A stretch of DNA of 64,000 nucleotides from Candidatus Nitrosotalea sinensis (lineage in GTDB: Archaea > Thermoproteota > Nitrososphaeria > Nitrososphaerales > Nitrosopumilaceae): contig NZ_FRFC01000004.1 of assembly GCF_900143675.1 (NCBI RefSeq), positions 1 through 64,000 on the forward strand, in the 5' to 3' direction. Shown here piece after piece: positions 16,364-63,672 of this stretch. Position numbers and translations under genes: made by a program. A model generated the notes under the pieces. It did not search any database, was not told the origin of the DNA, and worked only from the letters and a program-made list of their open reading frames with translations. Position 1 is the first letter of the stretch, and each line of letters begins with the position of its first letter.

Positions 16364-16906
16364 TTATACGCGTAATCCGCTAGACAAGTCTTGGCTGTCT
16401 GATGTTGGATTTGTATTTCCAGACTGGGTTGAATTTCCAGAAGGATACATGCCTCTCATGTTACCTTTGTGAAATCCATGCTTCATTCCTCCATGACCCA
16501 TTCCAAACATTCCTCCAAATTGCATTTGATGACCTGGTGATGTATACAAGACAGTGTTATTTGATGGATCAACTATCACCATGTATGACATGCTCTTGTC
16601 ATCTATTACATTGAAGGCATAGACCACATATCCTTGCATGACTGTCAATCTTCCACTGATTGTCTTACCATTTGTCACTGCAGCTGCTGCGGTATCTGCG
16701 GCTGTAGAGAATTTGGTAGACACGTTAGACATGATTGTCTGCTGAAGGTTGATGGAGCCTTGAATGTGTGGTGACTGTGTTTGAGTTGGTTGTTGGGTTG
16801 AAGCAGAATCGGCATATGCTGCAGACAATCCTATTGTAGCAGTTATTGCTACACCTAGAATTATTGCAAATAGGCTACGATTTCTGGTCAAGTCTTTTGC
16901 GTTCAT
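16364..16906 (-). CDS. Exported PepSY-like protein with His/Met-rich tail
   Basis: A 180-residue secreted or anchored protein. Residues 1-33 form a signal peptide (basic RNRSL, hydrophobic core, cleavage near AYADSA). Residues 60-125 resemble a PepSY domain (GKTISGRLTVMQGYVVYAF, MVIVDPSNNTVLY). The tail is rich in Gly, His and Met (MFGMGHGGMKHGFHKGNM), which suits copper or other metal binding at the surface. It is probably regulated through the repeat at 16945-16967. The metal role is inference. Confidence 0.75.
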   Translation of the reverse strand: MNAKDLTRNRSLFAIILGVAITATIGLSAAYADSASTQQPTQTQSPHIQGSINLQQTIMSNVSTKFSTAADTAAAAVTNGKTISGRLTVMQGYVVYAFNVIDDKSMSYMVIVDPSNNTVLYTSPGHQMQFGGMFGMGHGGMKHGFHKGNMRGMYPSGNSTQSGNTNPTSDSQDLSSGLRV

Positions 16907-16967: not shown

Positions 16968-17030
16968 TTGTAGAAATTGCATTTACATCCCTAGATAACG
17001 ACTAAATATTAGACACAAAGAGGTGCTTTT

Positions 17031-17519
17031 ATGGAAGTAATTCCCAGTGGCCGTCTTGAACTCTTGTCTGAGATGGAAGAAAAATATGAAAAAAAGGACA
17101 AGCAGTATTTTGTCAAATTGCTAGATGACAAGGATTTTGTAATTAGATGCAGAGCAGTCTGCATTCTTGTAGATATGGGTGGAGAAGATGTTGTACCGCA
17201 TGTGGCAAATGTGCTAAAAAATGACTCTAATGAATTGGTCAGACATGAAGCTGCATTTTCTCTTGGGCAGATGTGTCTTAGAAGTGGAATCAAACCCCTT
17301 GAAGATGCAACACGAAATGACCCTAGCTTGTTTGTAAGACATGAGGCAGCAGTTGCACTTGGAGTGATTGGCTCACAGGATGCAAAGGAGACACTTCAAA
17401 AAGCATTGGAAGATTCAAGTGAACAAGTGCGAGATTCTGCAGTAGTGGCATTGTCTAACTTGAAATTCATGGAAAGCATGTGCAAAAATGATAGGTTTGC
17501 CAAGCTAACTGGCGGCTAG
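17031..17519 (+). CDS. HEAT-repeat protein with two His-Glu motifs (DOHH-like half)
   Basis: A 162-residue protein of about four HEAT repeats. Two repeats carry His-Glu at the same place: LVRHEAAFSLGQM (H72-E73) and FVRHEAAVALGVIG (H104-E105), 32 residues apart. Deoxyhypusine hydroxylase binds its di-iron centre through His-Glu motifs in such repeats, about 33 apart in each half of a protein of about 300 residues. This is half that size, so a homodimer could rebuild a site. Ordinary E-Z HEAT or phycocyanobilin-lyase-like proteins share the ALG pattern but usually not both HE pairs. The family is clear; the hydroxylase role is inference. Confidence 0.75.
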   Translation: MEVIPSGRLELLSEMEEKYEKKDKQYFVKLLDDKDFVIRCRAVCILVDMGGEDVVPHVANVLKNDSNELVRHEAAFSLGQMCLRSGIKPLEDATRNDPSLFVRHEAAVALGVIGSQDAKETLQKALEDSSEQVRDSAVVALSNLKFMESMCKNDRFAKLTGG

Positions 17520-19591
17520 AGAGGAGTAACCAAAGTTCCGTCAGGTGTTGACTTGAATTCATAAATTGTGTCAATATTGGAATTTTCAAATATTTCAGAA
17601 TCATGTGTTATTATGATGAATTGGGATATTGCATCAATGTTTGATTCAAATGCTTGTGATAACACACTTACAAGTGATTTTCTTCTTTCTTGATCAAGAT
17701 GGGTTGTTGGTTCATCAAGTATTATGAAATTCAAGTTAGATGATCCCATGAGATGCGCCATGCCTAATCGTAATGCAAGTGCAATACTTACCTTCTCGCC
17801 TCCGCTCAATGATTCTAAATCAAGTTCAGAATTTCCAGAATGACATGTTATTACAATGTCTCGTGCTTTATCCTCTAGTGATATTCTTTGTATCTTTACA
17901 TTAAATGTTGTAAGGTATTCTGAAGCTTTTTGAGATATGGTTCCAAGTGCCCATGATCGAAGACTAGTAGCAACAGGACCATCTCTATTGTATATTTGAT
18001 TTCTTATTGTTTCAAGGGTTGTAATGTATTGTTTTGCGTCTTGTAATTCTGCAATTGCATTTGAGATTTGAGCAGTTTCATCTTTGTATAATCTCAGTTT
18101 TGCATCCACTGATCCAATTTCTCGTTCTATTGTGCCAATGGATCCACGTTGTTGTTCTAATCTTAATTTTAATTCCCTGAACTTGTCAGAATCAAACCCT
18201 TTAGTCTCTTCAATCAATGCTGATATTGTTTTTATCAAATCTGAGGAATAATCATCAATTGCGTACTGGAGGATGTTTGTAATGTTTAATTCAAGCGGTA
18301 TGTTTTTTGTACTTGTTTCAATAGACTCTATTTCCTTACTGAGGATGGATAAATCGTCTTGATCCTTTATTTTGTGAAGTGCCAGAATTCCTTCTGCTTT
18401 TGTAATTTGTATCCATTTTTGATCAAGTTCTCTTTTCTTGCTTTGCAGCAAATTCTCTTCTTTTGTTAACATGTCTGTCTTATTTTTTAGCACTGTCAGT
18501 TCTGATTTGAGGTGTCCTTCTTCAAAGAGTGGGTTGAGTTTGTCTACCTTTGAATCGCATACTGGACATTTGCCATCTATTAGGTGAAGCCTGTTTGCAA
18601 TCTCCTGCTGACCTCTGATCATTGCAATTTTTTCTCCGGCTTCTTTTGTCTGTCCTCGAATCCTGTCAATGTCTGCTTGTATATTTTTCATTTCTTGCTC
18701 TATGTGAGGTTTAACTGATGTAATGGAAAGACTGTTTGTACACTCTGCTAACCTTCTCTTTTTTTCGTCCACTTCTCTTTTCTTTGTCGTTATGAAATTT
18801 TTCAGGTATTTTACAAGATCATCTTTTTTGTTAACTATTTCTTTTATTTTGAGTTCTTTTGGTGTTTCTATTTCAATCTCTTGTTGTAATAAAAGAAACT
18901 TTTGTTCTTGTATTATTCTGTCATCTTCAAGTTTTTTCTTTTGTGGTTCTAGCATTGTTATTTCTTTTTGAATGTGTTCAATCCTGTTTTGTAATGTAAG
19001 AATATCGGTGTCATCATGACCAATCTTTGTTTTCACTGTCAATCTGAAATTATCTATTGTCTTTCGCATTGATTCGTAAGCAATATCCAGTTTGTCTATT
19101 CCAATTATTGCGTTTACAAGCTCTTTGAATTTTTTAGGATCTGCTTCAATTATTGTTTGAAGTTCTCCCTGCTGAACGATTGATGCAACCTTTAGTTTCT
19201 CAAAATCAAGGCCTACAAGTGATTCTATTGTTTTTGTCATAGATTCTCCAAATTGTTTTCTCTCTCCTGCAGCAAGTGAAATTATCTGGCCGTCTTTTTT
19301 TTCATTTAGTACTGCTCCTACTGTTCCTTTGGAGTCTATCTTTCTGATTGCTTCAAATTGCCTGTCCCCGATGGAGAATTCCACCTTTGCATATGATTGG
19401 TTATCTCCTCGTCGGAGTAATCCTTTTGTAGATTTGCGCAAATGTTCTCCAAACAACGCAAATGTAATTGCATCAATTATGCTTGATTTTCCTGCTCCAT
19501 TTGGTCCTACAAATACTGTCACACCTTTCTCAAAGGTTAATTTTGTATTCTTGTGAGACAGAAAGTTCTCAAGCTCAACTGATTGTAACAT
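17516..19591 (-). CDS. rad50: DNA double-strand break repair ATPase Rad50
   Basis: An SMC-like ATPase of about 691 residues: Walker A in VFVGPNGAGKSSIIDAITFA near the start, Q-loop SIVQQGEL, coiled coils around a zinc hook (GKCPVCDSKVDKL, about residue 350), signature LDLESLSGGEKVSIALAL and Walker B FIILDEPTTHLD. The coiled coils are shorter than in most archaeal Rad50 proteins (around 850-900 residues). ATG 19591 gives the canonical MLQSVELENFLSH start; codons further up lie deeper inside mre11. It overlaps mre11 by 17 bp, consistent with translational coupling. Confidence 0.95.
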   Translation of the reverse strand: MLQSVELENFLSHKNTKLTFEKGVTVFVGPNGAGKSSIIDAITFALFGEHLRKSTKGLLRRGDNQSYAKVEFSIGDRQFEAIRKIDSKGTVGAVLNEKKDGQIISLAAGERKQFGESMTKTIESLVGLDFEKLKVASIVQQGELQTIIEADPKKFKELVNAIIGIDKLDIAYESMRKTIDNFRLTVKTKIGHDDTDILTLQNRIEHIQKEITMLEPQKKKLEDDRIIQEQKFLLLQQEIEIETPKELKIKEIVNKKDDLVKYLKNFITTKKREVDEKKRRLAECTNSLSITSVKPHIEQEMKNIQADIDRIRGQTKEAGEKIAMIRGQQEIANRLHLIDGKCPVCDSKVDKLNPLFEEGHLKSELTVLKNKTDMLTKEENLLQSKKRELDQKWIQITKAEGILALHKIKDQDDLSILSKEIESIETSTKNIPLELNITNILQYAIDDYSSDLIKTISALIEETKGFDSDKFRELKLRLEQQRGSIGTIEREIGSVDAKLRLYKDETAQISNAIAELQDAKQYITTLETIRNQIYNRDGPVATSLRSWALGTISQKASEYLTTFNVKIQRISLEDKARDIVITCHSGNSELDLESLSGGEKVSIALALRLGMAHLMGSSNLNFIILDEPTTHLDQERRKSLVSVLSQAFESNIDAISQFIIITHDSEIFENSNIDTIYEFKSTPDGTLVTPL

Positions 19592-20738
19592 TTCTTGCTC
19601 CTTTTTTGAATTTCTCAAAATTTTCTATTACTGCTTGACTTGATTCATCTGCGTTACCTTTTGACAAAAGAGGTAAAAGTTCGTTTATTGCAAAATTTGC
19701 CATCTCTGTAGAGCCAAGTATTTCTTTTGCAATTCTCTGCATCTCTTCTTCTATCTTAAGAGGTTTGTCGATAAAGACAGAGCCACTTGCTTGTTCTTGA
19801 GATATGTGCTTCCAAAAACAACGTAGTGTAATCTCTGTTAGTCTAGCTACTTGTGATTGAATTATTCCAGGCTCTGTCATCTTACCTGTTATCTTTAATT
19901 CAACCACGGGTTTTCTTGTCAAAGTTCGTATCTTTTCCATAAGCATGTTTACATCATTTGAAATGGAATCAATCGAGGTTTTAATGGAAAGTTGTGTGCG
20001 TATGTCAAGTTTTATCCATGTTGGAGACGCTTCTTTTGTTGAAATATCTACCTGATAGAATCCCTTCTCTGTTTCTTTAATCCCTTCACTTGATGTAAGC
20101 TCAATTGATCCTGGATATGCAAGAGGACCTCCAAGATGAGAAAATTGTCTTAGCTCATGCTCATGAAGATGACCCATTGCATAATATGTAAAATTTTTTG
20201 GAAGATCAGACGAGTTCAACTCCCCTGCAAATTTGTTTACTTCTGTTATTCCTTGATGTAGTACCAGTATCTTATGTCCTTGGTGTTTTTTGGCTTCTGC
20301 ATCAATTCGTGCAAGTTCTGGCTCAAAGCTTTCGCTCTCTGCCTTTCTGCGCTTGTCGAATCCTGCGATTAATACATCCTTGTGAAAGATTGGATTTCCA
20401 TCTCCAATGTATTTTGAAAAACCCAAGTTGTGATACACAAATGGCACAGGTGTTGACCTTATTCTGCTGATGTCGTGCTCTCCAAGTATAAAATAAGAAT
20501 CAATATTATTTTTCTTCAAACGTCTTAATGCATTAGCAAGTACTAGTATTGCTTTTCCACTTGGGTTGGGAACGTGAAATATGTCTCCTGCCAGTAGAAC
20601 AAAGTCTACGTGATCTTTTATCGATGTATCAATTGCCTGGTCAAATGCAGTGTATACATCGTTTTCACGTTCTTCTGAATGGTACTGAACAAAACCTAGA
20701 TGAGTGTCAGAGATGTGAGAAAAGATCATCTTAATCAA
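19575..20738 (-). CDS. mre11: DNA repair nuclease Mre11
   Basis: A 387-residue calcineurin-like phosphoesterase. Motifs are FSHISDTHLG, LLAGDIFHV, ILGEHDISR, LVLHQGI and AMGHLHEHE. It processes broken DNA ends together with Rad50, HerA and NurA. Motif III is usually GNHD with Asn as a metal ligand; here it is GEHD. The C-terminal part (about 260-387) is the helical capping and Rad50-binding region. ATG 20738 and ATG 20729 are both possible; the first overlaps herA by 8 bp. Confidence 0.95.
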   Translation of the reverse strand: MIKMIFSHISDTHLGFVQYHSEERENDVYTAFDQAIDTSIKDHVDFVLLAGDIFHVPNPSGKAILVLANALRRLKKNNIDSYFILGEHDISRIRSTPVPFVYHNLGFSKYIGDGNPIFHKDVLIAGFDKRRKAESESFEPELARIDAEAKKHQGHKILVLHQGITEVNKFAGELNSSDLPKNFTYYAMGHLHEHELRQFSHLGGPLAYPGSIELTSSEGIKETEKGFYQVDISTKEASPTWIKLDIRTQLSIKTSIDSISNDVNMLMEKIRTLTRKPVVELKITGKMTEPGIIQSQVARLTEITLRCFWKHISQEQASGSVFIDKPLKIEEEMQRIAKEILGSTEMANFAINELLPLLSKGNADESSQAVIENFEKFKKGARNVTIS

Positions 20739-62043: not shown

Positions 62044-62741
62044 TTTCACGAATTGAAGAAAATGATCTAGGTTTTACTAGCCTCTGGAGCAATGCTAAAA
62101 AAATGGAATGTGGCACATTGTTCCTAAATACATTGTTTACAGATGATCTTTTTTTTAACAAATTATCTGATGTTTCATGTATTAGCGAGCAAATGATTGA
62201 TGAATCCATAAAATATTTTCAGAAAGAACATTTGCTCCCCTGTGTATATTCTGTAAATTATAAAGAACTTGAAAATCTGCTTGAAAGAAAAGGATTTGTG
62301 CATCATGATACGTTGCACGTATTAAAAAGAAATACTGGAGAAAATAGGAAAATAAGTGCAATCAAAATAAACACTGATACTGTTTCACTGTGGACTGATA
62401 TTTTTTGCAGGGCATATGATTGTCTAGAATGGGGACCAGATGTGACAAAAGCTGTTGAAAATTCGTTACAGTGTGCAGATTACTTTATAGATGAATCAAA
62501 GAGCTCATGCGTGGCTCTATATGAGAAAAATGATATTCTTGGCCTGTATTGTCTTGGAACCGTCACTGATCGAAGAAATAGCGGGCTTGCCTCACTGCTT
62601 GTTGACTTTGCATCAAATGAGGTCAAATCAAGGTCTTTAGAATGCCTTATCCTGGAAACATATGGCAGGGATAATCTTTTGAAATTTTATTCAAAGCTTG
62701 GATTTGAACAGGTCTATGAAAAAAAAGTCTATACTATTTGA
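62040..62741 (+). CDS. GNAT-family N-acetyltransferase
   Basis: A protein of about 233 residues. The acetyl-CoA site is TDRRNSGLASLLVDFASNEV (the R/Q-x2-G-x-G/A-type motif A), with LIYE-like ILETYGRDNLLKFYSKLGFEQ at the end. The first ~110 residues form a separate half, as in two-lobed GNATs. ATG 62040 overlaps the preceding TGA (ATGA), so it is coupled to the CysRS-like gene. Substrate unknown. Confidence 0.8.
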   Translation: MISRIEENDLGFTSLWSNAKKMECGTLFLNTLFTDDLFFNKLSDVSCISEQMIDESIKYFQKEHLLPCVYSVNYKELENLLERKGFVHHDTLHVLKRNTGENRKISAIKINTDTVSLWTDIFCRAYDCLEWGPDVTKAVENSLQCADYFIDESKSSCVALYEKNDILGLYCLGTVTDRRNSGLASLLVDFASNEVKSRSLECLILETYGRDNLLKFYSKLGFEQVYEKKVYTI

Positions 62742-63672
62742 GCTTGGAAACTAGTGCAGAATAAAGGAAAGGTAGAATGGTTGTTGCTTCAGCATGGATT
62801 GTAGTCTGCTTGGCATTTTTTGTCACTTTGCCCCATGATATTGCTTCTCTGACAAGTGCTCCACTAAGACTTCCGTCAAATTCTTGAGCTGTTGTAATGT
62901 ATACTGCATAATCTAGACCTTCTCGATATTGGTTCCACCATAAAGTGTGGTGTTTTGATATTCCGCCGCCTATCATGAGTGCTCCTGATTTTTTTGCCTT
63001 GAATATCAATCCTGACAACAAGTCGCCATCTGCAACAATGTTGAGCTTAAAATCTGCATGATTTTGTGAAAACATCCAGATTTGACTTCCTACTGCACCG
63101 TCCATTATGCCAGGTACTATTACAGGTATGTTGTTTTTGCTTGCCCAGTACAAGAACGAGTCTTCTCCCAAGTTCTCACCTATCATTTTTGTTATCTCAT
63201 GAGTTGACATGTCTTTCTTGCCTTCCTTGTATGCTTTTTGCAAAAAGCCCTGCATCTTTTCTTCTATGAGTGGACCGTAGCTTTTCAGAGGGACTAGAAC
63301 ATTTCCTAATCTGTGAATTTCTTTTTCGACAAGCTCACTATCATCCATTGTAAATGATCCTTCTAGATAATTGGAATAATGTCGAGCAATATCATGATCT
63401 AGCGCACCGCATGTTGTTATTATGACATCACACATTTTGTTTTTCACCATGTCTGTAATTATGCCTCTCAGGCCGGTTGACACCACTGCCCCCACAAATG
63501 ACATGAATTTCAAACAATTCTTGTCTTCGATCATGGAAGTTAGTATGTTGAGGCCGTCTACCAGATTCTTGGATTCAAATCCACCTGATTTTGACATTTG
63601 TTCAAATATTGACTCTATGGAATCTCCTTTCTTGATGGATATGTCTTTAACTGGTTTACCAGGCTTTATCAT
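62734..63672 (-). CDS. dys: Deoxyhypusine synthase
   Basis: A 312-residue enzyme that transfers the aminobutyl group of spermidine to aIF5A. Diagnostic parts are FVGAVVSTGLRGII, ITTCGALDHDIAR, VIVPGIMDGAVGSQIWMF, the active-site Lys in GGGISKHHTLWWNQ, and VYITTAQEFDGSLSGA. The length is typical for the archaeal form. It links to the DOHH-like HEAT protein at 17031 in the same window. Confidence 0.95.
   Translation of the reverse strand: MIKPGKPVKDISIKKGDSIESIFEQMSKSGGFESKNLVDGLNILTSMIEDKNCLKFMSFVGAVVSTGLRGIITDMVKNKMCDVIITTCGALDHDIARHYSNYLEGSFTMDDSELVEKEIHRLGNVLVPLKSYGPLIEEKMQGFLQKAYKEGKKDMSTHEITKMIGENLGEDSFLYWASKNNIPVIVPGIMDGAVGSQIWMFSQNHADFKLNIVADGDLLSGLIFKAKKSGALMIGGGISKHHTLWWNQYREGLDYAVYITTAQEFDGSLSGALVREAISWGKVTKNAKQTTIHAEATTILPFLYSALVSKLK

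Follow-up and report, generated by a model that had tools for sequence, protein, structure and literature searches.

Hypusine occurs in some archaea, and no homologue of deoxyhypusine hydroxylase (DOHH) has been found in any (PMC5178350, 2016; PMC6105217, 2018; PMC7773846, 2020; PMC8153317, 2021); on this point the four papers state the same as the sequence-only reading of the DNA analysed here, according to which no archaeal DOHH is established. The question raised by this locus is whether a half-size HEAT-repeat protein of Candidatus Nitrosotalea sinensis, encoded in a stretch of 64,000 nucleotides (the window), could be the missing enzyme. We consider it probable, with real room for doubt, that this candidate is a homodimeric, O2-dependent di-iron hydroxylase of aIF5A-deoxyhypusine. 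The features concerned are collected in the table.

Features of the window, with position, strand and basis of assignment
Feature	Position	Strand	Basis
Candidate homodimeric deoxyhypusine hydroxylase, half-size HEAT protein, 162 aa	17031..17519	+	ORF, HEAT_2, human DOHH as best natural PDB relative, AF2 model
GAGGTG, Shine-Dalgarno-like, 5' of ATG	17020..17025	+	Read from sequence
H72-E73; counterpart of DOHH H56-E57 and H207-E208	17244..17249	+	Invariant 99/99, HMM alignment
G79-Q80; counterpart of DOHH G63-Q64 and G214-Q215	17265..17270	+	Invariant 99/99; PMC9117371
H104-E105; counterpart of DOHH H89-E90 and H240-E241	17340..17345	+	Invariant 99/99, HMM alignment
C-terminal Thr-Gly-Gly of the window protein	17508..17516	+	Conserved in ammonia oxidisers and f16/f31
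rad50-like gene, convergent with the HEAT gene	17516..19618	-	ORF, P-loop/SMC-type sequence
Deoxyhypusine synthase (DHS), enzyme one step earlier	62734..63672	-	PF01916, E=7e-103 at G000:C4:62755-63609

The open reading frame starts with ATG, and its product is matched by Pfam HEAT_2 (E=7e-24) and is the sole significant match of its kind in its own genome (99.9% complete). The two His-Glu (HE) pairs, H72-E73 and H104-E105, had been described from the letters as lying 32 residues apart in consecutive HEAT repeats; the reading frame and an AF2 model (pLDDT 93) confirmed this, each pair being placed near the start of the second helix of its hairpin (model helices 68-81 and 100-113). The rad50-like gene overlaps the stop codon by 4 bases, an arrangement also seen in L117, and is probably functionally unrelated. 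The product of 16364-16906 on the minus strand, 180 aa long, opens with a signal-like stretch and ends in a tail rich in Gly, Met and His (MFGMGHGGMKHGFHKGNMRGM); it may bind metal.

Comparison of the family profile with the PDB placed human DOHH (E=1.6e-35) far ahead of any other natural protein, the runner-up standing at 1.8e-12 (proteasome RPN2 and YibA lie near 1e-12). Each half of human DOHH aligned with the profile at about 65 bits, the HE pairs and all metal ligands falling in register, and the window protein is 34% identical to each half. The human sequence used agreed with 4d4z but for one difference over 289 aligned residues; H56/H89 and H207/H240 are 33 residues apart on it, which bears out the spacing of about 33 within each half on which the sequence-only reading relied. 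In DOHH, iron is anchored by H56, H89, E90, H207, H240 and E241, and the substrate is bound by E57, E90, E208, E241 and a glycine pair that includes G214 (PMC9117371); the second glycine of the pair is printed there as G65, the equivalent glycine in the sequence being G63. All of these residue types are invariant in the archaeal half.

Superposition of the AF2 model on 4d4z gave a TM of 0.71-0.72 and an rmsd of 1.7 over 128-130 residues, that is, one DOHH half. As proof by itself the fold comparison was rejected: DOHH is outscored by designed alphaRep HEAT proteins, with unrelated HEAT proteins not far behind. The VIA Z for DOHH is 15.8, and unrelated HEAT proteins reach up to about 15, so little is proved by the fold in isolation. 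That generic designs score about equally would also be expected if the protein were an ordinary, metal-free HEAT scaffold for protein-protein contacts in which the HE pairs are structural or binding residues, and HEAT proteins are mostly non-enzymatic (PMC9040561). Conservation speaks against such a scaffold, which we regard as improbable. H72, E73, G79, Q80, H104 and E105 are identical in 99/99 distinct full-length orthologues, with identities to the window protein down to 39%, whereas none of 199 HEAT-like repeats of unrelated HEAT proteins, drawn almost entirely from two HEAT-rich bacterial genomes, has HE at the equivalent, highly variable positions; these positions vary in alphaRep designs too. 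From these counts it appears that the HE pairs are kept by function and not by the fold, and they occur in two consecutive repeats, in the register of DOHH.

DOHH is a symmetric dyad with its iron centre formed between two arms (PMC8153317); a half-size protein with the ligands of one arm would rebuild the site as a homodimer. Each chain of the window protein would then contribute half of a DOHH-type active site; in the resulting two-fold homodimer, with the concave surfaces facing, four His-Glu pairs would come together to bind two irons. With O2 and electrons, this homodimer would hydroxylate the deoxyhypusine set by DHS on the loop lysine of aIF5A, giving hypusine. Dimerisation, iron, the use of O2 and aIF5A as substrate are features that we infer for the window protein; the aIF5A encoded in the same genome has the loop SKPGKHG, which contains the modifiable lysine.

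Nearly all ammonia-oxidising archaea retain the half-size HE/HE gene. Strong orthologues, mostly of about 160-190 aa, were found in the Nitrosopumilaceae genomes sampled from the phylum and in the other families of ammonia oxidisers. The order that contains these also has them in additional families (f56, f61, f62 and f66), and two families farther away in the phylum, f16 and f31, have them in some genomes. Open reading frames of 760-960 aa with weak matches in many relatives were set aside as far larger proteins; weak HEAT similarity in proteins of about this size (L089-L107) recurs as background matches throughout the phylum. No fused four-HE HEAT protein was seen in archaea in a search that covered this phylum only, and no shared neighbours of the HEAT gene were found in most lineages. 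The C-terminal TGG is near-invariant in ammonia oxidisers and in f16/f31 (one reduced genome has VGG) and absent from f61/f62/f66; other lineages end in ARERAPRP or KKMPHP. The Thr-Gly-Gly could reach the active site or bind a partner.

DHS occurs in nearly all archaea, and was present in 29/30 and 41/41 of the genomes tested. The DHS gene that had been noted in the window is indeed there, but as support for a hydroxylase it is weak by itself, and was discarded as evidence, since it lies 45 kb away and is nearly universal. A second DHS homologue lies on the same contig, 24 kb past the end of the window (G000:C4:87449-88339); two homologues are found in nearly all these genomes, adjacent or divergent in several. 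Close linkage with the HEAT gene was found in two lineages. In G134, of a deep lineage (f16), about 75 bp separate the start of the HEAT gene from a divergently oriented DHS homologue, and a second DHS adjoins this homologue. In G426 (f3) DHS directly follows the HEAT gene on the same strand, the two open frames being about 75 bases apart, although this contig could stem from a relative, because the genome is fragmented and other members of the genus gave no strong match. Among the genomes examined no other close linkage was found, and most have no DHS neighbourhood; in G017 and G049 DHS lies about 5 kb from the HEAT gene. In the f62 genomes G306, G333, G346, G361, G369 and G371, the distance between the HEAT gene and the second DHS homologue stays within 33-43 kb; the larger neighbourhood is therefore conserved, the genes not being adjacent.

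These neighbourhoods bear on the most serious of the three alternatives, by which the protein is a homodimeric di-iron (or other di-metal) HEAT oxygenase acting on a substrate other than aIF5A, be it a different protein or a small molecule. The evidence for the metal site names no substrate, most genomes lack a DHS neighbourhood, and the C-terminal tail differs by lineage; against this stand the DHS neighbourhood in two lineages, the position of DOHH as the nearest characterised relative and the retained equivalents of Gly63/Gly214, and we judge a different substrate to be unlikely, if deserving of attention.

The use of O2 by a hydroxylase of aIF5A was considered through haem-copper oxidase subunit I (COX1, PF00115), sought in 102 genomes of known HEAT-gene status; strong matches (E below 1e-30) were scored as present and tallied by hand. 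COX1 was present in 39 genomes with the HEAT gene and absent from 4, these 4 being at most 90% complete; of those without the HEAT gene, 32 had COX1 and 27 did not. When only genomes at least 95% complete were counted, COX1 was found in 22/22 with the HEAT gene versus 9/24 without (Fisher p=3e-6, a significance inflated by shared ancestry). Many COX1-bearing relatives lack the HEAT gene; the direction of the association fits an O2-dependent enzyme that is dispensable to some aerobic relatives. aIF5A is retained in lineages that have no COX1, so the HEAT gene is not required for aIF5A as such.

Many Nitrosopumilaceae, and some Nitrososphaeraceae, have a second half-size HEAT family, of about 166-178 aa and with two HE pairs in consecutive repeats (L075, L076, L077, L080, L082, L195, L196 and L201); G355 and G416 contain it and gave no strong match to the window family. 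Its members resemble the window protein in size and in their HE pairs, but lack LGQ and TGG, are patchily distributed and were not found in the genome of the window. In a low-resolution, long-branched tree of DOHH and the two archaeal HE/HE families, the second family lies, relative to the midpoint root, on the same side as DOHH (91/84). This placement, together with its own two HE pairs, would suit a scheme in which the hydroxylation of aIF5A belongs to the second family (about 170 aa), or this family supplies a heterodimer partner, and the window protein does something else. We think this highly improbable: the placement depends on long branches, the family was not found in the window's genome, the 0.8-Mb genome G489 keeps the window family with no match to the second one found, and an unsystematic look showed no DHS neighbourhood for it. 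In the same tree the human DOHH halves group together (100/97), as expected from fusion and in line with an origin by duplication and fusion. That the window protein is at once the missing archaeal deoxyhypusine hydroxylase, as a homodimer, and a representative of the pre-fusion state, in which a half-size gene had yet to be duplicated and fused into the two-armed enzyme of eukaryotes, we put forward as a tentative and rather doubtful proposal.

The DOHH-like reading is partly supported: strong but indirect support comes from the invariant ligands in register with both halves, the DHS neighbourhood in two lineages, the restriction to COX1-bearing genomes and the presence of the aIF5A substrate; the DHS in the same window adds little by itself. 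Counting against hydroxylation of aIF5A are the small number of genomes with a DHS neighbourhood, the lack of counterparts to E93/E244, the confounding of the COX1 link by shared ancestry and the existence of the second HE/HE family in many of the same genomes. Our literature search, which did not reach preprints and most subscription journals, found no paper linking hypusine with Thaumarchaeota/Nitrososphaerota, and a prior description of an archaeal candidate in those sources is possible. For Sulfolobus acidocaldarius, in which hypusine has been reported, a control search returned no HEAT_2 match, so this species probably uses something else; the hypusine of Sulfolobus is left unexplained by the half-size candidate. 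The protein nevertheless provides a specific, conserved and small DOHH candidate, strong and testable, in an archaeal group that ranks among the most abundant; if the proposal is true, it would be a di-iron HEAT enzyme of minimal, symmetric build and would offer a plausible ancestral form of eukaryotic DOHH.

Among known systems, the E-Z/PBS-lyase HEAT proteins (NblB, CpcE/CpcF, YibA) have the repeat fold in common with the window protein, which falls far below the curated NCBIfam cut-offs for the PBS-lyase, NblB and CpcE models (best NblB, 41.7 of 300 bits); its HE pairs are also no feature of the unrelated HEAT repeats counted. With DOHH (human 4D4Z/4D50, yeast Lia1), an enzyme with a di-iron centre and a stable peroxo intermediate, it shares HEAT hairpins with HE pairs in successive repeats; in both proteins the first pair is followed by LGQ, and the second is embedded in VRHEAxxALGxIG. 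The fold, the HE register and the substrate-side equivalent of Gly63/Gly214 (G79) are likewise found in the window protein. It differs in being archaeal and not eukaryotic, in its spacing of 32 instead of 33 residues, and in having Val/Ile/Ala in its family where DOHH has E93/E244 beside the second motifs; it has 162 aa, about five hairpins and two HE pairs, whereas DOHH carries eight hairpins and four HE motifs in one chain. Because this one-chain, four-motif architecture is absent, membership of DOHH is not claimed; the claim is that the protein, in a genome that like those with DOHH has the DHS and IF5A pathway, works like DOHH.
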